DNA from: Streptosporangiaceae bacterium
GTDB taxonomy: Bacteria > Actinomycetota > Actinomycetes > Streptosporangiales > Streptosporangiaceae
Direction: 5' to 3'
DNA: 64,000 bases
NCBI GenBank assembly: GCA_019245115.1
Contig: JAFARZ010000220.1
Location: 62,001 to 126,000 of the forward strand
In this document: piece by piece, positions 340-17,398 of the stretch
Layout of the letters: every line of letters starts with the position of its first letter
Position numbering within the stretch: position 1 is the stretch's first letter
Program-made: the position numbers and the translations under genes
The notes under the pieces: model-generated
Database searches by the model: none
What the model saw: only the letters and a program-made list of their open reading frames with translations
What the model was told of the DNA's origin: nothing

Positions 340-1280
340 TCATCAGAAAGCACCTGGTCCAGGTCGGCGTAACCGTCTTCGCGGCGGTCGCGGTCGTGCT
401 AGGCACCGCCGCCGCGGACGCCGCGACTGCCGGACCGGCCAGACCGTCCGGGGCGCATTTGGCGCCATCGGTCCGCTCGGCGCCCGCCTGCAACCCGGAC
501 GCCAGCAGCATCCGCCCCTCCGGCCCGCCGCGGGTCACATCCGGCTCCTTCATGGCGACGATCAAGGCGCGCGGCTATCTCATCGCCGGGGTGGACCAGA
601 GCACCTATCACTTCGGCTTCCTCAACCCGCTGGACAACCAGATCGAGGGCTTCGACATCGACATGGTCCGGGCAGTGGCTGACGCCATCTTCGGCAACAC
701 GAACCCAGGCAATGTGCACTTCAAGGCGATCTCGGACCAGGATCGGATACAAGACGTGCAGAACGGCACGGTGGACATCGTCGCGCACACGATGACGATC
801 ACCTGCGATCGCCTCCAGAAACTCGATTTCTCCAGCGTGTACTTTGACGCCGGCCAGCGGGTCCTGGTGCAGAAGAACTCCGGAATCAGCGGCCTCGCCG
901 CCCTCAAGGGGCAGCGGGTATGCGCTACCAGCGGATCCGACTCGCCGGCCGCCATCGCCAAGGCGGGGGCGGTTCCGGTCGAAGTTACGTACTGGACCGA
1001 CTGCCTGGTCCTGCTCCAGCAGGGGGACGTTCAGGCGATCTCCACCGATGACTCGATCCTGGACGGGCTAGCGGCGCAGGATCCGTTCACCGAGATGGTC
1101 GGTGACCGCCTCACCCACGAGCCCTACGGCCTGGCGATCGCCAAGCAGCATCCGGAATTCGTGCAGTTCGTGAACGCGGTGCTGGAGCAGCTCCGCGCCG
1201 ACGGCCAGTGGGCGGACAGCTACCGGCGCTGGATCGGCTCGGACGTTCCTCCCCCGCCTGCCGCCCAGTACGGAAGCTGA
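336..1280 (+). CDS. glnH: GlnH-type amino-acid-binding protein of the PknG pathway
   Basis: A 314-residue exported periplasmic-type solute-binding protein (SBP family 3, glutamate/aspartate type). It starts MIIRKHL, has a hydrophobic signal segment (residues 8-30), and after a linker enters the bilobal fold: KARGYLIAGVDQST, the GFDIDMVRAVADAIFG motif, then VDIVAHTMTITCDR and LDFSSVYFDAGQ, all typical of the family. There is no canonical lipobox (APAC is the nearest), unlike the mycobacterial lipoprotein. No permease or ATPase gene follows, which favours a sensing role over transport. It overlaps the upstream gene by 4 nt, so the start at 336 is preferred over codons further upstream. Confidence 0.85.
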   Translation: MIIRKHLVQVGVTVFAAVAVVLGTAAADAATAGPARPSGAHLAPSVRSAPACNPDASSIRPSGPPRVTSGSFMATIKARGYLIAGVDQSTYHFGFLNPLDNQIEGFDIDMVRAVADAIFGNTNPGNVHFKAISDQDRIQDVQNGTVDIVAHTMTITCDRLQKLDFSSVYFDAGQRVLVQKNSGISGLAALKGQRVCATSGSDSPAAIAKAGAVPVEVTYWTDCLVLLQQGDVQAISTDDSILDGLAAQDPFTEMVGDRLTHEPYGLAIAKQHPEFVQFVNAVLEQLRADGQWADSYRRWIGSDVPPPPAAQYGS

Positions 1281-1283
1281 CCG

Positions 1284-2456: not shown

Positions 2457-4930
2457 ATACGTGTGGTAGTTGCGGGGGCACGATCGAGGACGGCTACTGC
2501 ACGGTCTGCGGCCTTGCGGCCGTGCCCGTTGCCGCCGCGGCCGGAGGCCCAGGCCAATCTAGCGCCGCGGCCGGAGGCCCAGGCCAATCTAGCGCCGCGG
2601 CCGCGGTGGGAGCTGGCACGCCATCGAGTCCATCGGTATCTTCCAGTCCATCCGCGACGGGCGCCTCATCGGTCGCATCAGGCACATCAGGCATGTCAGG
2701 CACGTCTGGTACGTCGGGCGCGTCGGGTGGCTCGGGTTCGCGGCGCAGTGGCTCGCGGCGTTCCAGCGGGCGGTCGGCCCGCGGCAGGCTCGGGGCCGGG
2801 CTGGTGGACATCCCGCCGGTGGCGTACCGCGATCCGTCCACGGCGGTTCTCGCGGACCCGCAGGTGCCGGAGAACCGGCGGTTCTGCGGCAACTGCGAGC
2901 AGCCGGTGGGCCGGAGCCGCGACGGCAGGGCCGGGCTGACCGAAGGATTCTGCCGGAACTGCGGCACCCGGTTCTCGTTCACGCCCAAGCTGGCGCCCGG
3001 CGACCTGGTCGCCGGGCAGTACGAGGTCCTGGGCTGCCTGGCCTTCGGCGGCCTGGGCTGGATCTATCTGGCCCGGGATCACAACGTCAGCGACCGCTGG
3101 GTCGTACTCAAAGGCCTGCTCAACACCGGAGACGCGGACGCCATGGCCGCCGCCGTCGCCGAGAGGCAGTTCCTGGCCCAGGTCGAGCACCCGAACATCG
3201 TGCGGATCTACAACTTCGTCCAGCAGGCCGGGGCCGGCTACATCGTGATGGAGTACGTCGGCGGCAAGTCGCTGAAGGAGATAAGGCGCCCAGGGCCGGT
3301 TCCCATCTCCCACGCCCTGGCGTACGCGATCGAGGTGCTGCCCGCGCTCGGTTACCTGCACGACCGCGGCCTGGTGTACTGCGACTTCAAGCCGGACAAC
3401 GTCATACAGACCGAAGAGCAGCTCAAGCTCATCGACATGGGCGGCGTGCGGCTGGTCGACGGCGACGGGCCGATCTATGGCACGGTCGGCTATCAGGCGC
3501 CGGAGATCGAGACCGAAGGCCCGTCAGTGTCTTCGGACCTGTTCACCGTCGGCCGTGCGCTGGCCGTGCTGACCTTCGACTTCAAGGGTTACCAGGGCGG
3601 TTACAAGTTCAGGCTGCCGGAAGGCATACCGCTGCTCGCCGAGCAGGAGTCGTTCGCGCGCCTGCTCCGCCGGGCGACCAACGCCGATCCGGGCCGCCGC
3701 TTCGGCTCGGCCGGGGAGATGGCGGAGCAACTGACCGGAGTGCTCCGCGAGGTCCTGGCGGTAGCCGACGGCACCCCGCGCCCGGCGTTCTCCACCGTGT
3801 TCACCCCGGAGATCCAGGCCATCCAAGGGGGGGCCGGGGGGATGGGTCCTCCCGGAAGCGGGGGGGTCACCGGGGGGGTCGTCCCCCAGGGGGATAAACC
3901 GAGCGTGACGGAGATCGTCGGCGGTCTCCCCATGCCGCAGGTGGACCGGACCGACCCGGCGGCCGGGTTCCTCGCCACGTTCGCCGGCCTCGACCCCGTC
4001 CAGCGCGTCGCCGCGTTGTCCGGTGCCGTGGCTGGCGAGGGCGGCGTCCCGCCCGATGTGGCGGCCTCACCGGAGACCAGGCTCGCGCTGGCCCGGGCCA
4101 TGCTGGATGTCGGCGACGCGGAAGGCGCCGGCGGCTTCCTGGCCGACCTGGCCGCCGACGATCCCGGCGACTGGCGGATCGCCTGGTACGACGGCCTGCG
4201 CCGGCTCCTTTCAGGTGATCCGGCGGCCGCACGCGGTGCGTTCAGCGCCGTCTACGACGAGCTACCCGGCGAACTCGCGCCCAAGCTCGGCCTGGCCTTC
4301 GCCGCCGAAGCCGCCGGCGACGCGGCTACGGCCGACCGCTACTTCCGCCTGGTCTGGACCGTGGATCACTCGCACATCAGTGCCGCGTTCGGCCTAGCCC
4401 GTGCCTGCCTGGCGGCCGGGGATCGCCTCGGCGCCATCAACGCACTGGCGGCGGTGCCGGAGACGTCGAGCCACTACGCCGCGGCCCAGATCGCCGCGGT
4501 GCGGATCCTCGTCTCGCCCGGCGTCAGCGGAGACGACCTGCGGGCGGCCGACGGCCGGCTCGGCAAACTGGCCCTGGACGAGGCCCGCCGCCAGCAGCTC
4601 ACCGTGGAGATCCTGCGTGCCGCGCTGGACTGGGCCGCCGCGGCCGGAGGCCCAGGCCAATCCAGCGCCGCGGCCGGAGGCCCAGGCCAATCCAGCACCG
4701 CGTCACCCGCTGGTGCCCCGGGCGCCGGGTCTTCGCAGGCTGCTAACGTCGTTCCGCGATCACGGTCCGGCTCTGATGGCATGATCCTCGGCTGCGAACC
4801 GAACGAGCGCGCGCTGCGCTTCGGTCTCGAGCGCGGCTACCGCGCGCTGGCCCGGCTCACGCCGGACCGTCAGCGCCGGGTCGAGCTGGTTGACATGGCC
4901 AACGCGGTCCGTCCGAGGACCTGGACTTGA
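2453..4930 (+). CDS. pknG: PknG-type Ser/Thr protein kinase with zinc ribbons and TPR domain
   Basis: An 825-residue soluble kinase. In order: an N-terminal zinc ribbon (C4, C7, C16, C19), a Gly/Ser/Ala linker with a 30-bp DNA minisatellite, a rubredoxin-like double CxxC module (about residues 143-170), the kinase domain (about 185-436; glycine loop AFGGLG, Lys in VLKGLL, catalytic VYCDFKPDN, DMG in place of DFG), a poly-G-encoded linker, and a C-terminal TPR-like helical domain (about 500-825). Rubredoxin-kinase-TPR is diagnostic of PknG, which in mycobacteria phosphorylates FHA proteins such as GarA and controls glutamate metabolism. The start at 2453 overlaps the previous stop (ATGA). It is longer than M. 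tuberculosis PknG because of the linkers. Confidence 0.95.
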   Translation: MNTCGSCGGTIEDGYCTVCGLAAVPVAAAAGGPGQSSAAAGGPGQSSAAAAVGAGTPSSPSVSSSPSATGASSVASGTSGMSGTSGTSGASGGSGSRRSGSRRSSGRSARGRLGAGLVDIPPVAYRDPSTAVLADPQVPENRRFCGNCEQPVGRSRDGRAGLTEGFCRNCGTRFSFTPKLAPGDLVAGQYEVLGCLAFGGLGWIYLARDHNVSDRWVVLKGLLNTGDADAMAAAVAERQFLAQVEHPNIVRIYNFVQQAGAGYIVMEYVGGKSLKEIRRPGPVPISHALAYAIEVLPALGYLHDRGLVYCDFKPDNVIQTEEQLKLIDMGGVRLVDGDGPIYGTVGYQAPEIETEGPSVSSDLFTVGRALAVLTFDFKGYQGGYKFRLPEGIPLLAEQESFARLLRRATNADPGRRFGSAGEMAEQLTGVLREVLAVADGTPRPAFSTVFTPEIQAIQGGAGGMGPPGSGGVTGGVVPQGDKPSVTEIVGGLPMPQVDRTDPAAGFLATFAGLDPVQRVAALSGAVAGEGGVPPDVAASPETRLALARAMLDVGDAEGAGGFLADLAADDPGDWRIAWYDGLRRLLSGDPAAARGAFSAVYDELPGELAPKLGLAFAAEAAGDAATADRYFRLVWTVDHSHISAAFGLARACLAAGDRLGAINALAAVPETSSHYAAAQIAAVRILVSPGVSGDDLRAADGRLGKLALDEARRQQLTVEILRAALDWAAAAGGPGQSSAAAGGPGQSSTASPAGAPGAGSSQAANVVPRSRSGSDGMILGCEPNERALRFGLERGYRALARLTPDRQRRVELVDMANAVRPRTWT
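2534..2600 (+). repeat. 30-bp in-frame minisatellite, first pknG cluster
   Basis: Two exact 30-bp units (2534-2563, 2564-2593) plus a 7-bp partial third. Each begins GCCGCGGCCGGAGGC and encodes AAAGGPGQSS in pknG. The same unit recurs at 4637 in this gene and, divergent at its end, at 8771. Confidence 0.95.
3828..3897 (+). repeat. Poly-G-rich stretch in the pknG linker
   Basis: Several runs of six or seven G in about 70 bp, encoding a Gly/Pro/Val-rich linker between the kinase and TPR domains. The frame stays open across it. The runs are slippage-prone and resemble the G-run hairpins seen in spacers of this window. Confidence 0.7.
4637..4699 (+). repeat. 30-bp in-frame minisatellite, second pknG cluster
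   Basis: Two 30-bp units (4637-4666, 4667-4696) nearly identical to those at 2534, differing by one base (AATCC for AATCT), again encoding AAAGGPGQSS, here near the C-terminal part of the TPR region. Confidence 0.95.
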
Positions 4931-4932
4931 AC

Positions 4933-4979
4933 GGCTCTAACCTGGCTGAGCGCAGCGAGGCCTTGGCGCGGAGGGGATT
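4933..4979 (+). repeat. Dispersed repeat carrying the ribosome-binding site of the PP2C gene
   Basis: Contains GAGCGCAGCGAGGCCTTGGC followed by GCGGAGGGGATT, directly before the GTG at 4980. The same sequence recurs at 13318 (opposite strand), 22794, 23542 and 23595. Its GGAGG end supplies the Shine-Dalgarno sequence here. Confidence 0.85.
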
Positions 4980-6137
4980 GTGAGCGAGCGAACGCGAGCG
5001 GAGACGATAGCTGCTTGCCCAGCCTGCGGAGAGCCGACCGGGCCGGGTGACGCGTTCTGCGAGAAATGCGGTACCGAGCTGGCTCCGGCCGTGGTGAGCA
5101 CCGGCACGCCCGGGTTCGTACCGAGCTGCCCGGTCTGCTCGGTGGACCCGTCCATACCTCAGCCGGTCGCGATCACCGCGGACGGGTACTGCGAGTCGTG
5201 CGGCCGCAAAGTGCCGACCGGACGCGACCATACCGAGCTCGACCTCGGCGTGCTCGCCGGCGTTACCGACCGCGGCATCCGGCATTCACGCAACGAGGAT
5301 GCTATGGCCCTGGCCACCGCGGAGACTCCGGCCGGCCCGGTGGCGATCGCCGTGGTCTGTGACGGCGTGTCTAGCTCGCCCCGGCCGGATGACGCGTCGC
5401 TGGCCGGCGCCCAGGCCGGTGTGCGGGTGCTGCTCAACTCCGTGCGTGTCGGTGACGGTCCGCGCAACGCCTCGCTGGCCGCGGTGCGCACCGCCGCGGC
5501 GGAACTGGCCGGTCTCGCCGGTCCCGGCGGCGCGCCGTCCGCCACCTACGTATCGCTGGTCGTCGGTCCCGATCCGGTTCCCGGCGCAGCCGCCGATTCC
5601 GGTCCGGCCACCAGTCCGGACCCGGACGTCGGCACGGGTCCGGATCCCGGATCCGATGCCGTCACCGCCGACTCGCCTGCCACCCCCGCCTCGCGGCCCA
5701 GTTCGGGCGCGGTGACAGTGTGCTGGCTCGGTGACAGCCGGGCCTACTGGCTGTCCGCCGAAGGCTCCAGGCGCCTCACCACCGACGACTCGCTCGCCCA
5801 GGAGATGATCGCCGCGGGCCTGGCGGACGAGGCCGAGGCGATGGCCAGCCCGCAGGCGCACGTGATCACGCGGTGGCTCGGTGCCGACATCGCCGAACCA
5901 CAGGCACGAATCACCCGGTTCGAGCCGACCGGACCGGGTGTCGTGCTGGCCTGCTCCGACGGTCTGTGGAATTACCTGCCGGAGGCCGCCGAACTGGCCG
6001 AGCACGCGCTGCCGGCCGCCGGGACCGACCCGCTGCGCGCCGCACGCGAACTGGTGCAGTTCGCCATTGATGCCGGCGGCATGGACAACATCACCGTGGT
6101 GCTGGTGCCGTTTCCCCTGAGAAGTTCGGTTACATGA
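4980..6137 (+). CDS. PP2C-type Ser/Thr protein phosphatase with N-terminal zinc ribbons
   Basis: A 385-residue protein with two CxxC...CxxC zinc ribbons (about residues 13-34 and 57-81) and a PPM/PP2C catalytic domain from about 90 on. Metal-binding and family motifs are present: TDRGIRHSRNEDA, VVCDGVSSS, WLGDSRAYWL, ACSDGLWNYL and GGMDNITVV. A Gly/Pro/Asp-rich insert (about 200-240) separates the two halves of the domain. The GTG start follows GGAGGGG supplied by a dispersed repeat. As the only phosphatase in the locus it is the natural eraser for PknG and for the facing kinase; its zinc ribbons resemble those of PknG and the FHA protein. Confidence 0.93.
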   Translation: MSERTRAETIAACPACGEPTGPGDAFCEKCGTELAPAVVSTGTPGFVPSCPVCSVDPSIPQPVAITADGYCESCGRKVPTGRDHTELDLGVLAGVTDRGIRHSRNEDAMALATAETPAGPVAIAVVCDGVSSSPRPDDASLAGAQAGVRVLLNSVRVGDGPRNASLAAVRTAAAELAGLAGPGGAPSATYVSLVVGPDPVPGAAADSGPATSPDPDVGTGPDPGSDAVTADSPATPASRPSSGAVTVCWLGDSRAYWLSAEGSRRLTTDDSLAQEMIAAGLADEAEAMASPQAHVITRWLGADIAEPQARITRFEPTGPGVVLACSDGLWNYLPEAAELAEHALPAAGTDPLRAARELVQFAIDAGGMDNITVVLVPFPLRSSVT

Positions 6138-6153
6138 GCGGGAGTTCAGTTAC

Positions 6154-7482
6154 ATGAGCGAGTCCGGCTTCACCGTCGACATCGACCAGAACCAGTACCT
6201 GCCCGAGGGCGGCCGCACGGTCAGCGCGGTCGTGACGGTGACCTCGGCTGACAACATGACCCTGCCCGGCGGTCCGGCAGCTGGCGTAGGCGGCGGCCCG
6301 GGCAGCGGTTCCGCCGAGATCATCATCGTGGACTGCTCGGGTTCGATGGACGTCCCGCAGACGAAGATGGCCTCGGCGCGGGCGGCGGTCGCCGCCGCCG
6401 TCGACGTGGTCCGCGACGGCACGGCGTTCGCGGTCGTGGCCGGCACGAGCACATCGTGGCCGGTGTACCCCACCGATGGCACCATGGCGATCGCGAACCA
6501 GTCCACCCGTGAGGCGGCCAAGCGCGCCGCGGCCGGCCTGCGGGCCAGCGGCGGCACCGCGATCGGCCAGTGGCTGCGGCAGGCATGCGCGATCTTCGAG
6601 ACGCACCCGGCCGAGCTCCGCCACGCGATCTTGCTCACCGACGGCAAGAACCAGCATGAGCGGCCCGAACAGCTCAACGCCGCGATCGCCCGGTGCGAGG
6701 GCCTGTTCAGCTGCGACTGCCGTGGTGTCGGAACCGACTGGGAGGTCGCCGAGCTCCGCCGGGTCTCCACCGCGCTGCTCGGCACGGTGGACATCGTGCC
6801 GGATCCCGCCGGGCTGGCCGCGGATTTCACCACGATGATGGAGAACGCGATGGGCAAGCAGGTCGCTGATGTGGCGCTGCGCGTCTGGACGCCGCAGCAC
6901 GCCGCCATTCAGTTCGTCAAGCAGGTGGCGCCGGAGGTGGTCGACCTCACCGAGCGACGCAGCCAGTCGGGTCCGCAGGCGGGAGATTACCCCACCGGCG
7001 CGTGGGCGCCAGGGGAGAGCCGTGACTACCACCTGTCTGTGGCGGTTAATCCTGCTGGTGTGGGGCAGGAGATGCTAGCCGCGCGGGTGAGCCTGGTGGC
7101 GTCCTCGGCGTCCGGGTCCGAGGTGCTGGGGCAGGGGCTCGTCCGCGCGGTCTGGACCGATGACACAGAGCTGTCCACCAAGATCAACGCGCGAGTCGCG
7201 CATTACACCGGCCAGGCCGAGATGGCGGACCTTATCCAGGACGGCCTCGAGGCGCGCAAGCAGGGCGACGAGGAAACCGCGACCGCCAAGCTGGGCCGCG
7301 CGGTTGCGCTGGCCGAGGAATCCGGCAACGACGACACCGCCAGGCTGCTGGCCAAGGTGGTCGACGTGGTCGACGCCGCTACCGGCACCGTCCGGCTGAA
7401 GAAGGCGGTGGCTGACGCCGACGAGATGGCGCTCGACACGAGATCGACAAAGACGGTCCGGGTGAGGAAAGAGCAGGCGTAG
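6154..7482 (+). CDS. VWA-domain protein of the PknG locus
   Basis: A 442-residue cytoplasmic protein (no signal peptide) with a von Willebrand A domain. The MIDAS motif DCSGS lies at about residues 60-64, the MIDAS Thr in SGGTAIG at about 135, and the conserved Asp in LLTDGKNQ at about 158. A beta-rich middle part and a charged helical C-terminal region (about 350-442) follow. It starts 16 nt after the phosphatase gene; the junction contains an imperfect 20-bp tandem duplication that repeats the ATGAGCG start. VWA proteins bind partners through the MIDAS metal, so a role in complex assembly or as kinase substrate fits, but is inferred. Confidence 0.9.
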   Translation: MSESGFTVDIDQNQYLPEGGRTVSAVVTVTSADNMTLPGGPAAGVGGGPGSGSAEIIIVDCSGSMDVPQTKMASARAAVAAAVDVVRDGTAFAVVAGTSTSWPVYPTDGTMAIANQSTREAAKRAAAGLRASGGTAIGQWLRQACAIFETHPAELRHAILLTDGKNQHERPEQLNAAIARCEGLFSCDCRGVGTDWEVAELRRVSTALLGTVDIVPDPAGLAADFTTMMENAMGKQVADVALRVWTPQHAAIQFVKQVAPEVVDLTERRSQSGPQAGDYPTGAWAPGESRDYHLSVAVNPAGVGQEMLAARVSLVASSASGSEVLGQGLVRAVWTDDTELSTKINARVAHYTGQAEMADLIQDGLEARKQGDEETATAKLGRAVALAEESGNDDTARLLAKVVDVVDAATGTVRLKKAVADADEMALDTRSTKTVRVRKEQA

Positions 7483-7490
7483 GGGGCGGC

Positions 7491-8318
7491 ATGGCCATAT
7501 GTCCGGACGGTCACGATTCGGTCAGCGAAGACTATTGCGACGTCTGCGGCATGCGGATAGGCGGCGCCCCCACCGGGTCCGCCACTGGATCAGCCGCCGG
7601 GTCAGCCCGAGCCGGCTCGGCTCCGGCCGGACCCGTCACGTCCGCGCAGGCCGCTTACCCGCCCGCCGCCGGCCGAGGCTCTACGTCGTCAGCGGCCGCC
7701 TGCCCGCAGTGCGGCTCGTCCACGACTCCGGGCGCATTCTGCGAAGTCTGCGGCTACAACTTCGCCGCCGGCGCACCGTCCTCGTCCAGCGCTTCGCCTA
7801 CCGCATCCGCCTCCTCGCCCCTCCCGTCCGGCCCAGCCCCTGTTCCGGACACCCGCTCCGCTTCTCCCTCCCCGCTGACCCCAGGAACCACGTCAGTCAC
7901 AGCCCCTCCGGTCTCTACCGGCCCCTGGACTGCGGTGGTGGCAGCGGACCGCGGCTACTACGAGACGATGCAGGCCGCGACCGAGGGAGACGGGGCGGAC
8001 ATTCCGTTTCCGCCCTACTGCCCGGAACGCCGGTTCCAGCTCGCCGGCGACGAGATGCGTATCGGCCGGCGCAGCCCATCTCGCGGACTCGAGCCGGAGA
8101 TCGACTTGACCGGCCCGCCGACCGATCCCGGCATCAGCCGCCTGCACGCCGTCCTGATCGCCACTTCCGACGGTGGCTGGGCGGTTCTCGACCCCGGCTC
8201 CGCCAACGGCACCCAGGTCAACGGTGCCGACATCCCGACCAGCCAGCAGGTCCCCCTCCACGACGGCGACCGCATAAGCCTAGGCGCCTGGACCACCATT
8301 ACCATTCACACCTCCTGA
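7491..8318 (+). CDS. FHA-domain protein with zinc ribbons
   Basis: A 275-residue protein. Two short CxxC zinc ribbons (about residues 4-20 and 76-92) and Ser/Ala/Pro linkers precede a C-terminal FHA domain (about 180-275) with the phosphothreonine-pocket motifs RIGRRS, SRLHA and NGTQVNG. FHA domains bind phosphothreonine peptides. PknG in mycobacteria phosphorylates the FHA protein GarA, so this is the likely reader or substrate of the locus, although I see no GarA-type ETTS phosphorylation motif and the architecture differs. RBS AGGGGG lies just before the ATG. Last gene of the rightward run. Confidence 0.92.
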   Translation: MAICPDGHDSVSEDYCDVCGMRIGGAPTGSATGSAAGSARAGSAPAGPVTSAQAAYPPAAGRGSTSSAAACPQCGSSTTPGAFCEVCGYNFAAGAPSSSSASPTASASSPLPSGPAPVPDTRSASPSPLTPGTTSVTAPPVSTGPWTAVVAADRGYYETMQAATEGDGADIPFPPYCPERRFQLAGDEMRIGRRSPSRGLEPEIDLTGPPTDPGISRLHAVLIATSDGGWAVLDPGSANGTQVNGADIPTSQQVPLHDGDRISLGAWTTITIHTS

Positions 8319-8431
8319 CCCGCCCACGCCGCCCGCACCCGCCCGCGCGCCCCCCGCGGGCCACCCGAAGCTCGCGGCCCGTTACCCCAGATAGCGACCA
8401 GTTCGACTTGTCACCCGCTACGTCGCACATG

Positions 8432-9856
8432 TCACCCGCTACGTCCATTCGTCGTGATCAGGGGCAGTCGCACGGTGAAGTTCACCCACAGCGCGTGGAT
8501 GAATCCCGCCGGCCAGATGGCGAAGGCCAGGACCACCCCGGCCGTGCCGGGGACCCCGATCGGGCCGTTGACCGAATCCGGCGCGGTCAGTATGAGGCAG
8601 AACGCAGCGATCATCAGCGCAAGGTAGGCGGTGGCGACAGCCAGCCACCGGCCCCGCCCATGCCTGATCGCGATGTAGCCGAACGACATCCAGGCGCCCA
8701 TCCCGAGCGGCAGCAGAGTCGGCAGGATCCACAGGCTGTGCCGTAGTGCCCGGCGCGGCCGGGGCAGCGCCGCGGCCGGAGGCCCAGGCAGATTCGGCAC
8801 CGCGGCCGGAGGCCCAGGCAGATTCGGCACCGCGGCCGGAGGCCCAGGCAGGTTCGGCACCGCGGCCGGAGGCCCAGGCAGGTTCGGCACCGCGGCCGGA
8901 GGCCCAGGCAGGTTCGGCGCCGCGGCCGGCCTGTCGCCCGTGGTCTCCGGGCGCACCCGGACCAGCAGCCGCGAATAGAGCTGCATCCCGCTCGCGTCAC
9001 CCGCCGAGGGGCTGATGTCGCCGAGCGGGCTCAGCGGGCCGACGTAGGGCAGGAGCCGGTCGTAGACTTCCCGCGCGCCCGACGGCCGCCAGGCCGGGTC
9101 CTTCTGCAGCAGCTGCCACACGAGCTGTACCAGCGGCACGTCGAGGTCACCGCGGCTCAGCGGGGCTGGCGCCTGCTCCAGATGCATGCGCATCAGCGCG
9201 GCGGGTGAGGTGGCGCTGAACACCGGCTCGCCGGACAGCAGTTCGTACAGCAGGCAGCCCAGCGCGTACAGGTCGGTCCGCGGCGTCGTGGGGAGGTTGT
9301 GCAGTTGCTCCGGCGCCATATAGGCGGGCGTGCCGACCGCGACACCCGTGCTGGTGATCCGCTGGCTGACAATGCCGGCCACGCCGAAGTCCAGGATCTT
9401 CGCGGTCCCGTCCGCGGTCACCATCACGTTGGCCGGCTTGATATCCCGGTGGATCACCCCCCGCTCATGCGCGACCGCGAGCACGGCGGCGACCTGCGCG
9501 CCGATCGCGGCCACCCACGGGACCGGCAGTGGCCCCTGCTCGGCGATCAGGTCGCTGACCGTGCATCCGCCGACCAGCTCCATGACCAGGTATAGACCGC
9601 CGTCGTATTCTCCCGCGTCGTAGATCGCGGGCACGCCCGGATGCGGCAGGCCGGCGGTCACGGCCGCCTCCCGCGTGAACCGCCGCACGCCGTCGTCCGG
9701 CTTCGCGTGCGTGGCGAGCGTGTTGTAGGTCAGCAGCTTCACCGCGACCGGCCGGCCGAGCCGCTCGTCCTGTCCCTCCCACACCTGGCCCATCCCGCCG
9801 CGGCCGAGCGGGCTGATCAGCCGGTAGCGGCCGGCGAGGAGTGCGTCGTTCCCCAC
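8432..9856 (-). CDS. Ser/Thr protein kinase with repeat linker and C-terminal membrane segments
   Basis: A 474-residue Hanks-type kinase: LGRGGMGQVW glycine loop, VAVKLL lysine, GVIHRDIKPANVM catalytic loop, LDFGVAG and a GTPAYMAPEQL activation segment, catalytic domain about residues 8-270. A Pro/Leu/Ala linker made of five 30-bp repeats (PNLPGPPAAV) follows, then about four hydrophobic segments (about 375-465), so the kinase faces the cytoplasm. The GTG start lies 11 nt after the stop of the methylase-like gene, suggesting one transcript. It converges on the FHA gene. It is not PknB-like: there are no PASTA domains. Confidence 0.93.
   Translation of the reverse strand: MGNDALLAGRYRLISPLGRGGMGQVWEGQDERLGRPVAVKLLTYNTLATHAKPDDGVRRFTREAAVTAGLPHPGVPAIYDAGEYDGGLYLVMELVGGCTVSDLIAEQGPLPVPWVAAIGAQVAAVLAVAHERGVIHRDIKPANVMVTADGTAKILDFGVAGIVSQRITSTGVAVGTPAYMAPEQLHNLPTTPRTDLYALGCLLYELLSGEPVFSATSPAALMRMHLEQAPAPLSRGDLDVPLVQLVWQLLQKDPAWRPSGAREVYDRLLPYVGPLSPLGDISPSAGDASGMQLYSRLLVRVRPETTGDRPAAAPNLPGPPAAVPNLPGPPAAVPNLPGPPAAVPNLPGPPAAVPNLPGPPAAALPRPRRALRHSLWILPTLLPLGMGAWMSFGYIAIRHGRGRWLAVATAYLALMIAAFCLILTAPDSVNGPIGVPGTAGVVLAFAIWPAGFIHALWVNFTVRLPLITTNGRSG
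8771..8930 (+). repeat. Five-copy 30-bp minisatellite in the membrane kinase
   Basis: Five units (8771-8800 to 8891-8920) plus a 10-bp remnant. Each has CGCGGCCGGAGGCCCAGGC, as in the pknG clusters, then RATTCGGCAC or GGTTCGGCAC. On the plus strand the unit runs in the same direction as in pknG, but the host gene is on the minus strand, so here it encodes PNLPGPPAAV. Confidence 0.95.
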
Positions 9857-9867
9857 ATTGGGCGACT

Positions 9868-11712
9868 TTAGTGGATTCCGGGCGGCTCGAACGTGCCTCC
9901 GGTAACACCGTCCGCCAGGAGCCGGGCGAGTTCGGCCGCCATGGTGTCCGCGGATCGGACCGCTGCCCGCAGGTGCGCGACCCGCCGGAACGCGTCGCCG
10001 TACCCGCGCTGTTCGGCCAGCGGCAGCAGGGGAATCTGAGCCCGCAGGACGTCCGCGCGACCCGTGCTCCCCCGGCTATTCGTGGTTCCGGCCTGGGCCA
10101 TCGATACCCGGGCGTTTCCCGAACTGCCCAGCGCGCCGGCCACGAAGTGCGCGTCGAGCCGTGCCGGATCGACCCGGACCAGGGTGAGCGCTGGCCCGAG
10201 GATGGCTTCGCCGGCGTCCCAGACCCGGGCCGCGAACCGCCCGCCCCCCGTCGCCACCACGATGTCGCCGCCGTGGACCGTCACCCAGCGCGGGTCGCGC
10301 ATCCCCCGCCCCGAGGGAGGACGGCCTTCGGTGACGTCCTCGGCGGTGAGCACGCCATCCGGCCCGGTCCCCAGGTCACCGCGAACCGGCGCGTGATGGA
10401 TCTCCAGATGCCCGAGCCGGGCCAGTTCGGCGACCGTCACCACGGCCGTCTCGCGGGGGCGGCCCGCGGGCCGCAGCTCGGGCGTGAGCGGGCCGAGCAC
10501 GCCGAACAGGATCGCCAGTTGGTTGGTGACCTGGGAAAACTGTTCGGCCGCGTGCTCCGGGGCGGGGGCGGAGATGTGCCGGCCGGGTGTCAGGTCGACC
10601 TCGTCGTCGAGCAGGTCGATGACCGGCACGGCCCGGCTGATGCCGGGTTCCCCCACGCCCGGATCCGCGGCGAACCGCCGCCACGTCGCGATCACCGTCC
10701 GCGGGTCGGACGTGGCCATCATCAGCACGCTGCCCGGGGCGTCCGCCGCCGGCCTGCGCAGCAGCCACAGGTGGTGCGCCGCGGACAGCGCGATCACCGC
10801 ACGCAGTGCGCCTTTGCGCAGCAGTTGCGCCCGGATCCGCCGCCCGGGCCTGCGCGCCGCCGCGGCGGCGGGCAGCAACGCAGCGGCCAGGCCGCACGGC
10901 GACAGGTGGGCGATCATGTGCTGTGCCCAGGCCAGTTCGGGCTCCAGCCGTGGCGGCACACCGAATACCCACCGTGGGTCGCTGGGGTCCGCTTCTGGCA
11001 TTCCGCTGCGCTTGTGAACCGCCAGATTCGACAGAACGGCGTCGGCCAGGACCCCTGGGAACGCGTCACGCAGCAGGCCGTCTTCCGCGCGAATGGTGAC
11101 TTCGCCCGGATGAACGTCGCCGGTACCGAGCCGGAGCCGGATCGCGGCCAGCCGGGCTGAGTCGGCGTCGGGATCCTGGCCGAACAGGCGGCGGGCGCCG
11201 ACGCCGGCGGCGGCGAGGAGGATCTCGCCCGTCCCGCAGGCCGGATCAAGGACAGTGGCGGCTGCTTCGGCGAGCGCGGCCATGAGCTCCGCGATCTCCG
11301 GGTGGGCGACCGACGAGCCACGGGCCTGCACCTCCTGGAGGCGGCCGAACAGAACGTCGAAGGCGTCCGCTGGCCCCAGTGCCGCGACGAGTTCGGTCAG
11401 TGCGGGAGATGGAGCCTGTCCCCGCGCGAGCAGTTCCCCGGCGTCGGCGAGCGTCGCGGCCAGGTGTAGGTCGTCGCCCGCCCGGGCGCGAAGTTCCTGC
11501 CAGGCCCGCTCGGCCAGCGGCACCTCGAGCAGCTTCCCCTGGTCACGAAGCCACGCCTCGACCTCGTCCAGAGCGAACAGCGGGACCGCCGGCGTGCCTC
11601 CGGCGGGCCGCGGGAAGTCGGCATAGCGCCGCCGCCAGTTGCTGACCGCTGACCGCCCGACGTCGGCCAGTCGCGCGATGTCAGCGGCGCTCACGAGGGT
11701 TTCGTCTGACAC
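9868..11712 (-). CDS. N-6 adenine methylase-like HTH protein with degenerate catalytic motif
   Basis: A 614-residue protein with an N-terminal helix-turn-helix (about residues 8-60, ADIARLADVGRSAVSNW) and an HsdM-like Rossmann domain with SAM motif I DPACGTGEILLAA (about 155). The expected catalytic NPPY/DPPF motif is replaced by SNLAVHK (about 235), so methyl transfer is doubtful. The C-terminal 200 residues resemble a target-recognition module. No restriction subunit is adjacent. The GTG start is followed downstream by the membrane kinase gene on the same strand. It may act as a DNA-binding regulator; that is inference. Confidence 0.8.
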   Translation of the reverse strand: MSDETLVSAADIARLADVGRSAVSNWRRRYADFPRPAGGTPAVPLFALDEVEAWLRDQGKLLEVPLAERAWQELRARAGDDLHLAATLADAGELLARGQAPSPALTELVAALGPADAFDVLFGRLQEVQARGSSVAHPEIAELMAALAEAAATVLDPACGTGEILLAAAGVGARRLFGQDPDADSARLAAIRLRLGTGDVHPGEVTIRAEDGLLRDAFPGVLADAVLSNLAVHKRSGMPEADPSDPRWVFGVPPRLEPELAWAQHMIAHLSPCGLAAALLPAAAAARRPGRRIRAQLLRKGALRAVIALSAAHHLWLLRRPAADAPGSVLMMATSDPRTVIATWRRFAADPGVGEPGISRAVPVIDLLDDEVDLTPGRHISAPAPEHAAEQFSQVTNQLAILFGVLGPLTPELRPAGRPRETAVVTVAELARLGHLEIHHAPVRGDLGTGPDGVLTAEDVTEGRPPSGRGMRDPRWVTVHGGDIVVATGGGRFAARVWDAGEAILGPALTLVRVDPARLDAHFVAGALGSSGNARVSMAQAGTTNSRGSTGRADVLRAQIPLLPLAEQRGYGDAFRRVAHLRAAVRSADTMAAELARLLADGVTGGTFEPPGIH

Positions 11713-11845
11713 GGTTCTAACGCTACCGCAAAGCTTAATAAATGGCCACAGTCAATTCGCTTGTGTACTTGGTTCACATATGCTTTGCTATCCGCAGTCC
11801 TAACAAGCCGGTCATACCCGGCGATCCGACTCCCCAGGAGACCCG

Positions 11846-12568
11846 ATGCGCTCCAGCGTGAAGGTGGTGGCAATGTCAGCGGCCGCCCCGTCGCTTGTGA
11901 TTGCACTGCCGCTGCTTCTAACCGCATGCTCAGCCGCCTCCAGCTCGCCAACGGCCGGTTCCACGGCGTCCAGTTCCACGTTGCCGGCCTCCACGCCTGC
12001 CTCAGCCTCCCCGGTCACTCCCGGCGGCTCGTCGCTGAGCGCGGATCAGATCGCCAGCAAGGCGAACGCCGACCTCAAGGCGGCCACGTCCTACCATCTC
12101 TCTGGGACGCTCGACATATCGGGCACTACCGAAACCATGAAGCTCACTCACGCGGCCGGTAACTGCGCGGGCACGATCTCGATCGGGAACCAGCCGATCT
12201 CGTTCGTGCAGGTCGGCAGCACGGCTTGGGTCCGGGCGGGCAGCGGGGGCGATTACCTCAAGACCAGCACGAGCAACTCAAGCTACAAGCAGGATTTCTC
12301 GTACTGTGACCCCAGCCAGGTTGCCGAGCTCGTGGGCCCAATGAGCGGGAGTCTGACCAAGGGCGCGACCACGACAGTGGACGGCACGCAAGTGCAAAAG
12401 CTTGCCCTTGCCAACGTGATCACGATCTACGTAACGACCTCCGCCACGCCGGAGTATGAGCGAGTCACCGACAACGTCGATTCCGAGCACGTGCAGCTGG
12501 ACTTCTCCAGCATCAACGCACCGGTCTCGATCAACCCGCCACCAGCCAGCGAAGTGCTTGGCACCTGA
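11846..12568 (+). CDS. LppX/LprG-like secreted lipoprotein
   Basis: A 240-residue lipoprotein: signal peptide and lipobox LLTACSA (Cys at about 32), Ser/Ala/Pro linker, then a beta-rich domain of the LppX_LprAFG/LolA-like type (ATSYHLSGTLDISG, followed by strands and two Cys). Family members carry lipids or sense envelope state. RBS AGGAG lies 5 nt before the ATG. The next gene is a second lipoprotein 17 nt downstream, so the two are probably one transcript. Confidence 0.8.
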   Translation: MRSSVKVVAMSAAAPSLVIALPLLLTACSAASSSPTAGSTASSSTLPASTPASASPVTPGGSSLSADQIASKANADLKAATSYHLSGTLDISGTTETMKLTHAAGNCAGTISIGNQPISFVQVGSTAWVRAGSGGDYLKTSTSNSSYKQDFSYCDPSQVAELVGPMSGSLTKGATTTVDGTQVQKLALANVITIYVTTSATPEYERVTDNVDSEHVQLDFSSINAPVSINPPPASEVLGT

Positions 12569-12585
12569 ACAGGAGTCCACACGAA

Positions 12586-13311
12586 ATGCGCCTCATAGTG
12601 AAAGCGGCCGGCGCCGCTGCCGCCCTGCCGCTCATCCTCACCGCGTGCTCCACATCTTCGTCCACGGGATCGGCGCCGTCCACCCAGCCGACGACCACCA
12701 CGACCGCGGCGGCCGCGCCGAGTTCCGCCGATCCGGACGCGGGGCTGCTCACTGGCACCCAGCTCAAATCCATGCTGGCGCCCGCATCCTTCTTCCCGTC
12801 CAGCTTCAGTCGCGACCCCAGCGGTTCGGTGAACACCGGCGACACCTTCCAGGCCGCCACGCCCCCGGGAAAGCTGGCCTGCAGCAGGCTGGACACCACC
12901 GGGTGGGTCGACCTGTCGGATATCGGCTCGGTCTCGTTCGCCCAGAGTGACTTCATCGACAAGTCGATTTCCGAGGAATACGCCCAGGAGGTGGACGAGT
13001 ACCAGGGTCTGGGCGCCAAGAAGGTCATGGCGGCACTGCGCAAGGTGGCGACCAGGTGCCGGACGTTCTCCGATCAGCAGACGAGCAGCACGGTGACGGT
13101 CAAGCTCGGCAAAGGGCCGTCGCTTGGTGACGATTCGCTGTCCTTCACGCTGACCAGCCCGCGCTGGCAAGGCGGCACCACCCTTGAAGCCATCCGCATC
13201 GGGACCGTCGTCGTCACCGTGCTCTACTCGGCGGTCAACGGCAACGGCGCGGCCCAGGCCGACGTGCTGGCCGGCATAGTCGCCGGAAAGGTAATCCAGA
13301 AGTCGCTGTGA
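12586..13311 (+). CDS. Secreted lipoprotein, PknH sensor-domain-like
   Basis: A 241-residue lipoprotein with lipobox LILTACST (Cys at about 21), a Thr/Ala/Ser linker, and an alpha/beta domain with two Cys (LACSRLD and ATRCRTF) that could form a disulphide, as in the extracytoplasmic PknH-type sensor domain. The family match is by general pattern and not certain. It follows the first lipoprotein with an AGGAG site between them. Confidence 0.7.
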   Translation: MRLIVKAAGAAAALPLILTACSTSSSTGSAPSTQPTTTTTAAAAPSSADPDAGLLTGTQLKSMLAPASFFPSSFSRDPSGSVNTGDTFQAATPPGKLACSRLDTTGWVDLSDIGSVSFAQSDFIDKSISEEYAQEVDEYQGLGAKKVMAALRKVATRCRTFSDQQTSSTVTVKLGKGPSLGDDSLSFTLTSPRWQGGTTLEAIRIGTVVVTVLYSAVNGNGAAQADVLAGIVAGKVIQKSL

Positions 13312-13317
13312 CCTTCT

Positions 13318-13359
13318 TCCCTCCGCGCCTAGGCCTCGCTGCGCTCGGCCGGCTTGGGG
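13318..13359 (-). repeat. Dispersed Shine-Dalgarno repeat, opposite-strand copy
   Basis: On the minus strand this reads GCCCCAAGCCGGCCGAGCG then CAGCGAGGCCTAGGCGCGG and AGGGAAG, matching the copies at 4933, 22794, 23542 and 23595. No start codon follows it on the minus strand, so this copy has no translation role. Confidence 0.8.
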
Positions 13360-13394
13360 CCGCGGCGGGATCGCCGCCCCCAGCCGTAGCCCGT

Positions 13395-14162
13395 TCAGTA
13401 CTTGGGCCCGACAAACTCGTCCAGCCGCGCCACAGCATCCCGCCGCGCCACGGAGATCGCGTTCCGGCGCGAGAAACGCCAGGCTACTTCGAGCCGATCC
13501 AGCGTCTGCCCGCACAGCAGCAGGATGTCCTGGGATTTGTTGATGAACAGGTAGCGCGGATACTCGTACCACCGGTCGCCATCAGCGAGCCGGGCCCGGA
13601 CCCGGTTCACGCCTCGCCACCCATCCGAGTGAAACAGACCACGGGCGAAGTCACCCGGATGCTCATCCACGATGGCCCGCTGCCATTCCGCCAGCCCGAT
13701 TTTCCGGTTGTGTTTCTTACCCGGCCCATGCTGCGGGAACAGGCACAGCCAGTGCTTGGACGTGCTCTTCACTTCCGTGTAGCCAGGGCGTTGGACGGTG
13801 AAGACGCTGGAAATAGGCATCACTGCGGACATCGCGGTCTTCGTGGCTTCGGCAAGACCGGGCCAGGCATCGCAGCACGCTATGGACACGGCGAATACAC
13901 CCTTACGGCTGCACGTCAGCCAGCCATCGCCGAGATAGAGGCCCAACAGGTACGCATACTCGGGCTCGTCCAAGGGTCTCTCGTGACATCGCGGACAGTC
14001 TGCCGACGTTTGCGTACGGCGATTACCGCGGGCCCGGCGGCGGCCGGTGCGCCATTTCTGGACGGCGCCTATCGAGACGCCGGTGAGCCGCGCGACCTCT
14101 CGGTCTATGAGGCCTTGCGCGGACAACTGGAGTGCCCTGTCCACTGTTGCCTGAGGGTGCAT
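13395..14162 (-). CDS. Free-standing LAGLIDADG endonuclease-like protein with HTH
   Basis: A 255-residue protein. The N-terminal 45 residues form a helix-turn-helix (LIDREVARLTGVSIGAVQKW) and a CxxC pair follows (CPRCHE). Two LAGLIDADG-like helices, YLLGLYLGDGWL (about residue 70) and FARGLFHSDGWR (about 170), each end in the acidic GDG/SDG pair of a single-chain homing endonuclease. It is not inside an intron or intein, and starts 58 nt beyond the 3' end of tRNA-Leu on the same strand. Both acidic residues are kept, so activity is possible, but such proteins also act as regulators. Confidence 0.8.
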   Translation of the reverse strand: MHPQATVDRALQLSAQGLIDREVARLTGVSIGAVQKWRTGRRRARGNRRTQTSADCPRCHERPLDEPEYAYLLGLYLGDGWLTCSRKGVFAVSIACCDAWPGLAEATKTAMSAVMPISSVFTVQRPGYTEVKSTSKHWLCLFPQHGPGKKHNRKIGLAEWQRAIVDEHPGDFARGLFHSDGWRGVNRVRARLADGDRWYEYPRYLFINKSQDILLLCGQTLDRLEVAWRFSRRNAISVARRDAVARLDEFVGPKY

Positions 14163-14220
14163 GGGGGTATCATCCCGCGCACCGCTGACATTTTCGGAAG
14201 TGCGATGCTACCTGCAAAAG

Positions 14221-14306
14221 TGGTGCCGGAAGCGGGATTCGAACCCGCACGCCTTCTCAGGCAGACGCTTTTGAGACGTCCATGTCTTCCGTTCCATCAT
14301 TCCGGC
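14221..14306 (-). tRNA. tRNA-Leu (CAA)
   Basis: 86 nt including an encoded CCA. On the minus strand: acceptor GCCGGAA/TTCCGGC, anticodon stem GACGT/GCGTC with loop CTCAAAA (anticodon CAA, reads UUG), a long class II variable arm, and the T-arm around GGTTCGAATCC. Long arm and anticodon agree on leucine. Confidence 0.97.
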
Positions 14307-14390
14307 AGATTTGCTGACGTTCCCGATTGGGGATCTCGTCACGTGGAGGTGCTCGATGACAATCTACCTGCTGGCGGTAGGCTCTTGCGC

Positions 14391-14996
14391 GTGAGTGGAG
14401 ACCCGGTGCGCGTAGTTATCGCAGAAGATGAAGCCCTGATCCGGCTTGACCTCAAGGAGATGCTGGAAGAGGAGGGCTACTCGGTGGTCGCCGAGGTCGG
14501 GGATGGCGAGTCGGCCGTGGAGGGAGTCACCAGCCTGCGGCCGGACCTGGCCATCCTGGACATCAAGATGCCGGTGCTCGACGGCATCTCCGCGGCCGAG
14601 CGAATCGCGGCGGACCGGCTCGCCCCGGTGGTGATACTGACCGCCTTCTCCCAGCGTGAGCTGGTCGAGCGGGCTCGCGATGCCGGCGCGATGGCCTACC
14701 TCGTCAAGCCGTTCACGAAGGCCGATCTGGTGCCGGCCATCGAGATGGCGGTCAGCCGTTTCGCGGAGATCCGCGCGCTGGACAAGGAGGTCGGCAACCT
14801 GCGGGAACGGCTCGAGGTCCGCAAGCTCCTCGACCGGGCCAAAGGGCTGCTCCAGACCGAGCACGGGCTGACCGAGCCGGCCGCGTTCCGCTGGATCCAG
14901 AAGACGTCCATGGACCGCCGGATGACGATGAAGGCCGTGGCCGAGGCGGTCATCGAGGGCAGTATGCGGGTGTCCGCCGACACCCAGCAGCCATGA
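14391..14996 (+). CDS. pdtaR: ANTAR-type response regulator (PdtaR-like antiterminator)
   Basis: A 201-residue two-domain protein. The receiver domain (residues 1-125) has acidic AEDEA, phospho-acceptor Asp in AILDIKMP, Thr in VILTAFSQ and Lys in LVKPF. The ANTAR RNA-binding domain (about 145-195) contains RKLLDRAKGLL. Phosphorylated, such proteins bind paired hairpins in leader RNAs and prevent termination. The mycobacterial counterpart Rv1626 sits near polA as here. The reading frame is open far upstream, but the conserved start VRVVIAEDEA and the lack of an upstream RBS favour GTG 14391; a possible -10 (TAGGCT) lies 8-13 nt upstream, so the mRNA may be leaderless. Confidence 0.92.
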   Translation: MSGDPVRVVIAEDEALIRLDLKEMLEEEGYSVVAEVGDGESAVEGVTSLRPDLAILDIKMPVLDGISAAERIAADRLAPVVILTAFSQRELVERARDAGAMAYLVKPFTKADLVPAIEMAVSRFAEIRALDKEVGNLRERLEVRKLLDRAKGLLQTEHGLTEPAAFRWIQKTSMDRRMTMKAVAEAVIEGSMRVSADTQQP

Positions 14997-15093
14997 GGCG
15001 GGGAGGTTAGCGGAGCGCCCTGGCTGGTGCTGTGCGGAGGTCTGGCAGGAACCCGGGGAGCCGTTGGTGCCGTGTCCGCCTTCCCCGGCCGAC

Positions 15094-15134
15094 ACGTTGT
15101 CTACTTGGACCCCCCGGGCCCGCCGACACAACGT
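15094..15134. terminator. Weak inverted repeat after the response regulator
   Basis: ACGTTGT (15094-15100) pairs with ACAACGT (15128-15134) around a 27-nt C/G-rich loop. There is no U-tract. It is the only paired structure I see in the 242-bp convergent spacer. Confidence 0.35.
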
Positions 15135-15238
15135 TAGCGACCCGCCCGGGCGTGGCGCAAAAGCGGGGCTGTCCCGCCGTAATCCCAAGATCAACTAATG
15201 ATCACGCCGCGTTCACTTAAAGGGAGCAGACCGGCGAA

Positions 15239-15709
15239 CTAGCAGCGGGAAGCGTCGCGGGCGGGGGGTCCGGGGGGTTGGTTTTCACCCCCCGGAAAAA
15301 CACTGTCGCGGACCATGCAGGTCAGGCGCGACGTGCATACCCGGCGTCCGGCTTCGTCGGTGATGAGGATCTCGAACGTGACCAGCGTCCGCCCGCCGTG
15401 TGCCAACGACGCGACGCCCGTGACCAGCCCGTCGTCGACGCTACGGTGATGCGTCGCGCTGATCTCGATCCCCACGACGATCCGGTCGGTCCCGGCGTGC
15501 AGCACCGCCCCGAGCGAGCCGATGGTCTCCGCCAGCACGCACGAAGCCCCGCCGTGCAACAGCCCGTACGGCTGAGTGTTGCCGGCCACCGGCATGGTCG
15601 CCACGACACGCGTCGGGGAAGCTGAGATGATCTTGATACCCATCCGGTCGGCGAGCGTGCCCGGAGCCACCGTCCGCTCCGCGATCCGGTCAAGGGTCTC
15701 CTGATCCAT
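15239..15709 (-). CDS. PaaI-type hotdog thioesterase
   Basis: A 156-residue single-hotdog acyl-CoA thioesterase: QPYGLLHGGASCVLAETIGS holds the family Asn/His-Gly-Gly-Glu region, followed by ISATHHRSVDDGLVTG. The start at 15709 is chosen because GGAGGTG precedes it and it gives a normal length. The last 12 residues are encoded across a G-run hairpin (15270-15295), so the tail is probably not conserved. It hydrolyses aromatic or fatty acyl-CoAs; the substrate is unknown. Thioesterases commonly neighbour polA in actinobacteria. Confidence 0.88.
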   Translation of the reverse strand: MDQETLDRIAERTVAPGTLADRMGIKIISASPTRVVATMPVAGNTQPYGLLHGGASCVLAETIGSLGAVLHAGTDRIVVGIEISATHHRSVDDGLVTGVASLAHGGRTLVTFEILITDEAGRRVCTSRLTCMVRDSVFPGGENQPPGPPARDASRC

Positions 15710-15918
15710 CCCGGCACCTCCATTTACCGAGGGGAGCCTCCCCCCGACCCCGCGGCGTTGACCGCGTCCCAAGCGTCCCATGCCCCGCCGCAATGCCCGC
15801 GCCGGCCGCGTCTCTAGCGACTCCGAGCGCGATACGCATCCGTTCCGGCACTGTTCGTAGGCAACAAGACCGAAACACTAACGACTCAATTTTGTGCGAT
15901 ACGCGTGACTTCCGATGG

Positions 15919-15932
15919 TGTTAGCGCTCACA
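15919..15932. promoter_or_regulatory. LacI-family operator before the aldose epimerase
   Basis: TGTTAGCGCTCACA is a near-perfect palindrome centred on AGCGCT, the usual core bound by LacI-family sugar repressors in actinomycetes. It lies 66 nt before the chosen start at 15998. The repressor gene is not in the window. Confidence 0.55.
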
Positions 15933-15997
15933 ATCAGACCTTGGAGCGATCAGACTCTGAACTTGTCGATGAAGGCCTGTCAGTGAAGGGAGCCATT

Positions 15998-17398
15998 GTG
16001 CGCCTGAACAGAAGACAGTGGCGTCTTCGTAAGCCATCTGGCGTTGCGAACGACACCACCAGCCAGCCCCGGCTCAGCATCGTCCGCCGGCCGGCGACCA
16101 TCGGGCTCGCGGCCGTGGTCGCGCTGGCCGTCGGCGGCTCGCTCGCGGCGACCCAGGCCATGGCGAGCAACGCCGCGCCAGCCGCAGCGAAGACCCACAG
16201 CGGAGGGCTGTCCGTGACCAGGACGCTCTTCGGTACCGCAATCGAGCCGTACACCGGCAAGCCGACCAGCGTGTTCCGCTACGTCCTCAGCAACGGGAAC
16301 ATGAGCGTCGCCATCATCACCTACGGCGGCGACCTCCAGGAGATCAACGTCCCGGACCGCCATGGCAAGTCCGCCGACGTGATCCTCGGCTTCGCCACCC
16401 TGAACGACTACGTCACCAAGGACAGCCCGCCGGTCGTCGCGAACGGCGGCCCGTACTTCGGCGAACTGATCGGGCGCTACGGCAACCGGATCGCCAAGGG
16501 CACGTTCACCCTCAACCAGCCTGGCGTAGGGCCGGTCACCTACACGCTGCCGATCAACAACGGCGTCAACTCACTGCACGGCGGCCTGGTCGGCTTCGGC
16601 AACCACATCTGGGCCGACCAGCCGATCCAGACCTCCAGCGAGGTCGGCGTCCAGCTGACCCTGGTCAGCCCCAACGGCGACGAGAGCCACCCGGCCGGTT
16701 CCCCGGGCTGCCCGAACGGCTGCACCGGGTACCCCGCCACGCTCAAGACCGTCGTCACCTACACCCTGGACGCGGACAACAACCTCAAGATCCACTACTC
16801 CGCGACCGACGAGTCGCCGAACCTCAACACGGTCCTCAACCTGACCAACCACGCCTACTTCAACCTGGCGGGCGAGGGCTCGGGCAGCGCCGCGAACCAG
16901 CTCATCCAGATCAACGCGAACACCTACACCCCGACTGACGCCACCCAGATCCCGACCGGTGTGTTTTCCCCCGTCGCGGGCACCCCGTTCGACTTCACGC
17001 ACTTCATGCCGCTCGGCTCCAGGATCGAGGACTGCACCCAGCCCGCTTCCCTGTCCTGCCAGCAGCTGCTCATCTCCCAGGGTTACGACCACAACTGGGT
17101 GCTGAACAGCACCGGCCCCACGCACGAAGGCCTCAACCTGGCCGCCCGCGCGCTCGACCCGCGCAGCGGCCGTGAGCTGAACGTCTGGACCGACCAGCCG
17201 GGCGTGCAGTTCTACACCAGCAACTTCCTCAACGGCACCCTCGTGGGCATCAGCGGCCACATCTACCGCCAGACCCAGGCGTACACGTTCGAGACCCAGC
17301 ACTACCCGAACTCGCCCAACCAGAAGAACTTCCCGTCCACCGAACTGGACGCGGGCAAGACGTTCAACAGCACGACCATCTTCCAGTTCTCTTCGTAA
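15998..17398 (+). CDS. Secreted aldose 1-epimerase
   Basis: A 466-residue exported mutarotase. It has an unusually long basic N-terminal region before the hydrophobic signal (about residues 30-52, ending ATQAMASNA). The family motifs follow: GRYGNRIAKG, NSLHGG, the catalytic His in TNHAYFNLAG, QGYDHNWVLN, and the catalytic Glu in PSTELDAGKTF near the C-terminus. It interconverts sugar anomers, here outside the cytoplasm. GTG 15998 is chosen because AAGGGAG precedes it. The LacI-type operator upstream implies sugar control. It is followed by a strong terminator. Confidence 0.92.
   Translation: MRLNRRQWRLRKPSGVANDTTSQPRLSIVRRPATIGLAAVVALAVGGSLAATQAMASNAAPAAAKTHSGGLSVTRTLFGTAIEPYTGKPTSVFRYVLSNGNMSVAIITYGGDLQEINVPDRHGKSADVILGFATLNDYVTKDSPPVVANGGPYFGELIGRYGNRIAKGTFTLNQPGVGPVTYTLPINNGVNSLHGGLVGFGNHIWADQPIQTSSEVGVQLTLVSPNGDESHPAGSPGCPNGCTGYPATLKTVVTYTLDADNNLKIHYSATDESPNLNTVLNLTNHAYFNLAGEGSGSAANQLIQINANTYTPTDATQIPTGVFSPVAGTPFDFTHFMPLGSRIEDCTQPASLSCQQLLISQGYDHNWVLNSTGPTHEGLNLAARALDPRSGRELNVWTDQPGVQFYTSNFLNGTLVGISGHIYRQTQAYTFETQHYPNSPNQKNFPSTELDAGKTFNSTTIFQFSS

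Follow-up and report, generated by a model that had tools for sequence, protein, structure and literature searches.

A kinase-linked HsdM-like fusion protein without catalytic motif IV in a Streptosporangiaceae genome: possibly a DNA-binding regulator derived from a methylase

We analysed a stretch of 64,000 nucleotides of DNA from a Streptosporangiaceae bacterium (here called the window), which lies on contig C387 of a single draft genome (444 contigs, 90.6% complete, 6.2% contaminated) that is the sole representative of its genus in our sample. The gene under study has a GTG start, 614 codons and no internal stops, and 11 nt beyond its stop codon is the start of a Ser/Thr kinase gene. The features of the locus are as follows.

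9868..11712, minus strand: 614 aa fusion of a helix-turn-helix (HTH), an HsdM-like domain and a half-HsdS, without motif IV
11533..11712, minus strand: N-terminal HTH, residues 1-60 (model helices and conservation)
10567..11526, minus strand: type I HsdM-like domain, residues 63-382 (structure and profile matches)
11224..11247, minus strand: SAM motif I, DPACGTGE, residues 156-163, intact (alignment with 29 relatives)
10963..11043, minus strand: motif IV loop, residues 224-250, in which SNLAVHK (11011-11031) replaces CDPPFHE
9898..10443, minus strand: half-HsdS target-recognition domain and long C-terminal helix, residues 424-605
8432..9856, minus strand: partner gene, Ser/Thr kinase of 474 aa (PF00069, 159 bits)
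11846..12568, plus strand: second lipoprotein-like ORF, between the two-gene module and the conserved lipoprotein gene
12586..13311, plus strand: divergent lipoprotein-like gene (signal sequence and Cys in the translation; no Pfam match)

The HsdM-like domain was recognized by several methods. Structure matches to type I M subunits had Z scores of 29.6 (3lkd_A) and 29.2 (7vs4_A), a profile match to 7vru_A had an E-value of 4.6e-47, and PF02384 (N6_Mtase) scored 64 bits on the protein (cut-off 20.4), over profile positions 31-215 of 311. HsdS matches were seen over residues 472-605 (family profile, E about 6e-10) and also over residues 478-595. In the structure model (mean pLDDT 86.7, pTM 0.66, from a 39-sequence alignment) residues 565-605 form the long C-terminal helix, and the N-terminal helices lie at residues 9-15, 20-29 and 48-57. 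The Pfam matches on this N-terminal part (HTH_23, HTH_28 and HTH_17) were weak and under their cut-offs, while residues 1-75 retain 34 of the 36 sites that are invariant in the orthologues. Taken together, the HTH, the M-subunit matches and the HsdS match indicated that the protein is a fusion of an HTH, an M part and half an S part. An earlier note on this DNA had proposed an HTH added to this copy; the HTH is indeed present, but its residues are conserved family-wide and so it is no addition here.

This domain order places the protein in an actinomycete family of solitary HTH-HsdM-half-HsdS fusions, many of them directly upstream of a Ser/Thr kinase. Homologues at E <= 1e-30 were found in 233 of the 297 genomes of the order sample (those listed were all in the window's family), and homologues at E <= 1e-20 in 83 of the 394 genomes of the class sample. 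The 84 plasmid records that matched the window protein were every one below 60% identity. A scan of genome contigs with the window protein gave two distant relatives only. Within its own genome, no second family member was found at E <= 1e-30 (40/40 candidates scored). The genome gave a single HsdS match, which lies on a different contig from the window. On contig C282 (1117-3156) there is another M-S fusion methylase of 679 aa, with an intact ANPPF and an HsdS-type domain.

In DNA methylases of this kind the catalytic motif IV is (N/D/S)PP(Y/F/W). When the window protein was aligned to solved HsdM proteins, NLAV was found where NPPF stands, and the alignment to the orthologues placed SNLAV at CDPPF, with the length equal and the frame kept; over the whole loop the change is from CDPPFHERAWGHEEL to SNLAVHKRSGMPEAD, again of equal length. 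SNLAV lacks the D/N/S residue, both prolines and the aromatic residue, and it therefore fails the motif IV pattern altogether. PPF is retained in all 29 aligned relatives. Both alignments thus bear out the claim in the earlier note that SNLAVHK stands in place of NPPY/DPPF, and SAM motif I is intact as the note had described. Given this motif definition, the window protein is probably catalytically dead.

The same note had raised the possibility that motif IV is lost throughout the subfamily, and this did not hold. We scored 341 same-family genomes with three candidates each, and matches at E <= 1e-125 came from 20 of them: the genome of the window, one with a member of a CHPPF clade and 18 whose proteins all carry CDPPF. 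The CHPPF protein (L021, in genome G061) was left out of the 18 as it belongs to another clade, and L145 was counted among the orthologues by its E-value of 1e-153, though it is outside the tree. In the tree, the window protein sits within a CDPPF clade of 18 rows with a support of 100. Across 92 rows (which include two distant outgroup proteins, the C282 fusion and the second ORF of L053), PP(F/Y/W) was kept in 87, and in 85 of the 90 family rows when the outgroups were set aside. The five rows without it are the window protein, where the entire motif is missing, and four single changes (NPQF, VPPV, DPPS and NLPF). Among the proteins sampled, the loss of the whole motif is thus restricted to the window copy.

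Residues other than D, N or S also occur at the first position of motif IV in this family: in the tree, 24 rows have CHPPF, four have CI/CVPP and one has CTPPF. The CHPPF rows comprise L034, L112, L113, L116-L118 and L120, and a clade of L021, L025, L027, L031, L032, L056 and others; the leading His is conserved from Streptomyces to relatives in the Streptosporangiales, and this pocket appears both unusual and conserved. The rows with Ile or Val first (L057, L058, L070 and L086, with CIPPF, CIPPY, CVPPF and CVPPV) form a clade of their own, and at three of these four loci a kinase gene follows downstream within 1.5 kb.

We further compared the loop with the rest of the protein. The 17 orthologues share 177 invariant columns, of which the window protein retains 153, and the losses are concentrated: only 7 of the 17 invariant sites in the motif IV loop are kept against 146 of 160 elsewhere (Fisher p = 3.4e-6), i.e. 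10/17 are lost inside the loop and 14/160 outside it. The motif I-III region keeps 16 of its 19 invariant sites and the TRD-like part 44 of 49. When the 17 orthologues were left out one at a time as a control, every one of them kept 17/17 loop sites. Outside the loop the same control gave 146/159 (0.918) for the window protein, near the value of L017 (0.919), with the orthologues ranging from 0.919 to 1.000. A loss confined in this way is more readily explained by a pseudoenzyme that is being maintained than by decay of the whole gene.

The terminal branch of the window protein is the longest in its clade (0.56 in one tree and 0.64 in another). In the window lineage, the terminal branches of PolA, the kinase domain and the methylase-like protein measured 0.35, 0.39 and 0.64, and the paths between the window lineage and G291 (sums from the trees) were 0.68 for PolA, 0.60 for the kinase and 0.91 for the methylase-like protein. 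On these trees the window genome is a divergent lineage, and the methylase-like protein appears to have evolved somewhat faster than its own genome, yet under constraint. With the lowest site retention of the range and the longest terminal branch, the protein may also have undergone some relaxation beyond the loop.

We also looked at how the loop could have changed. In DNA alignments of the loop, gapped alignments outscored in-frame ones against all 14 orthologues compared, and in 9 of the 14 the gain exceeded the 90th percentile of those in 57 comparable stretches from other parts of the gene. As these gains exceed expectation, small compensating indels are possible, and they are indistinguishable from in-frame substitutions as the origin of the loop. 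A frameshift was considered as the cause of the motif loss and rejected, since DPPF is absent from all three reading frames of the loop and the base composition by codon position gave no sign of a displaced frame; small paired indels would still be compatible with this.

The kinase has intact GxGxxG, VAVK, HRDIKPAN, DFG and APE motifs and, by hydropathy, two TM-like stretches at its C-terminus, in agreement with the membrane Ser/Thr kinase that the earlier note had placed 11 nt downstream. Its linker (window 8600-8900) contains, in translation, five tandem ten-residue Pro-rich units of the type PNLPGPPAAV. A same-strand kinase within 1.5 kb downstream was seen in 16 of the 17 orthologue loci, so that the pairing of a methylase-derived protein with a kinase, also proposed from the one sequence, turned out to be general among its close relatives. 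It was seen in 39 of 62 sampled family loci as well, that of Streptomyces hygroscopicus (L034) among them; the 62 loci and the 92 rows are the best matches to the window protein with some from the class sample, and are not a random draw. The kinase-methylase pairing is thus old and conserved.

When the loci were sorted by motif class, the kinase was present at 29/31 CDPPF, 5/6 CNPPF, 2/14 CHPPF, 0/4 CSPPF and 3/7 other loci, that is, at 34 of the 37 D/N-PPF loci against 5 of the 25 loci of all other classes. We rejected the kinase as a functional correlate of the canonical motif, since the pairing tracks clades and the 8 independent pairs on the tree gave a median p of 1; as the counts follow clades and the independent pairs lend no support, no functional link is claimed. 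Since the kinase usually stands beside methylases with the canonical motif, any real control by the kinase probably arose before catalysis was lost.

At 10 of the 17 orthologue loci, and at that of S. hygroscopicus, a gene similar to the lipoprotein-like gene at 12586-13311 stands upstream in divergent orientation; no further conserved gene family was seen around most of the family loci. The 12 neighbouring ORFs scanned with Pfam (297 to 17398) contained no restriction gene and no HsdR, as the note had also read from the window. On the other side, a plus-strand cluster at 297-8318 converges on the kinase gene and encodes a solute-binding protein, an unassigned protein, a PknG-like kinase, a PP2C phosphatase with a zinc ribbon, and one protein each of the vWA and FHA types. 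The minus-strand ORF at 13395-14162 has weak HTH_23 and LAGLIDADG_3 matches under their cut-offs and is possibly homing-endonuclease-like.

Reading from the sequence the loss of motif IV, its confinement to the window copy, and the conservation of the other parts and of the pairing, we favour, with about even confidence, a catalytically dead M-S fusion that was retained as a sequence-specific DNA-binding regulator, perhaps under the linked kinase. In this lineage, and in no other of those sampled, motif IV and its surrounding loop have been replaced, and a protein altered in this way would be expected to bind SAM and to recognize a specific site on DNA without methylating it. Two half-HsdS copies would dimerize into a full S-like unit, and in such a dimer the HTH and the two half target-recognition domains would grip the DNA. 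The linked membrane kinase would phosphorylate the protein and thereby set its DNA occupancy or its partner contacts. By descent the protein is a member of the HsdM-like fold family, and it perhaps works like a DNA-binding regulator.

The gene might instead be a non-functional relic, in which catalysis was lost by drift or changed selection and which is decaying with no new function. The long terminal branch would fit this, as would the knowledge of the loss from a single lineage, and the four other rows with NPQF, VPPV, DPPS or NLPF indicate that motif IV is lost now and then; however, the ORF is full-length and uninterrupted, 146 of the 160 invariant sites outside the loop are retained and the partner kinase is intact, and we regard decay as doubtful, though a serious contender. 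It is very improbable to us that the true protein has a normal motif IV which is hidden in the draft by an error of sequencing or assembly, or by small paired indels, within the loop. The contamination and the 444 contigs of the draft, together with the gapped alignment gains, speak for it, but several independent errors would be required to give a loop that is in frame, of orthologue length, undisplaced in codon-position composition and without DPPF in any of the three frames.

The window protein could also serve an active methylase as a partner without catalysis of its own, in the manner of heterodimers that join one active to one inactive subunit, and the intact ANPPF fusion on C282 would be at hand as the active one. 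There are type I enzymes, such as PacII, whose two M subunits differ, although there M1 and M2 carry NPPF and NPPY (PMC9613975). Since the C282 fusion is distant (branch 3.27), on another contig and, from its translation, without the N-terminal HTH of the family, and no further family member at E <= 1e-30 was found among the 40 candidates scored, we consider such a partnership unlikely by a wide measure. As for a still active methyltransferase with an unusual pocket or a different substrate, the protein still has SAM motif I and most of its fold, and the varying first residue (CHPPF, CI/CVPP, CTPPF) suggests that unusual pockets may be tolerated or used in the family; but here the polar residue, the prolines and the aromatic residue of motif IV are all missing, and continued activity seems to us very improbable as well.

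If the favoured reading, a dead methylase kept as a regulator, is true, it would be a natural case of a type I-like methylase in which binding has come apart from methylation, in a setting with an already conserved kinase partner. The intact CDPPF orthologues and the dead copy would then offer a comparison of whether the kinase controls a methyl mark or a bound protein. A wider proposal is that a kinase-paired solitary type I-like methylase became a SAM-binding, non-methylating, sequence-specific regulator of transcription here, controlled by a membrane Ser/Thr kinase, and that repeated erosion of motif IV (the CHPPF, CI/CVPP and CTPPF clades) has given rise to an actinomycete class of methylase-derived regulators; we offer this tentatively and think it rather unlikely. 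As a caution, annotations of 'N-6 DNA methylase' in actinomycetes cover proteins in which motif IV is altered or absent.

Among known systems, type I HsdM proteins (PF02384; 3lkd, and 7vru/7vs4, which are PacII M1M2S) have in common with the window protein the fold over residues 63-382 and SAM motif I. Unlike them, the window protein has an HTH in front and half an HsdS behind, and is without motif IV; unlike type I systems, the locus has no HsdR in the ORFs scanned. The top Foldseek match was the M-S fusion methyltransferase of Vibrio vulnificus (7eew, 561 aligned columns), which, from the length and title of the entry, we take to be an intact enzyme with M and S parts, and for which we know of no HTH or kinase link. 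The whole-chain superposition on 7eew was poor (rmsd about 30), so only the domains match. DnmA of Bacillus subtilis is likewise a methylase without a restriction role: it is a solitary adenine methylase with a role in gene expression, but it does methylate DNA, and the part of the paper available mentions no kinase partner (PMC7261158). In the literature searched, mostly outside subscription journals, we found no description of a kinase-methylase pair of this type or of inactive HsdM-like regulators.

The Pgl (BREX type 2) system of Streptomyces coelicolor likewise has a kinase gene (PglW) adjoining an adenine methylase gene (PglX). PglW is large, with a NERD domain and two kinase-like domains, against 474 aa for the window kinase, which scored 62.7 bits on the PglW profile NF033442 (cut-off 990). 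On the NCBIfam profile of MAD6, the kinase of the MADS defence system, it scored 141.4 (cut-off 460), and the PADLOC scores, from profiles without a cut-off, were 232 bits for mad6 and 51 bits for mad2. No PglZ was found at the window locus, and the genome has two partial matches just above the cut-off, on contigs C174 and C378. Membership of Pgl/BREX type 2 was rejected, as there is no adjoining PglZ and the kinase is far under the PglW cut-off. In the available part of the Pgl paper, PglX has NPPY and the authors proposed a phosphorylation signal to the methylase (PMC4365076). Of the described systems that we found, Pgl is the closest parallel.
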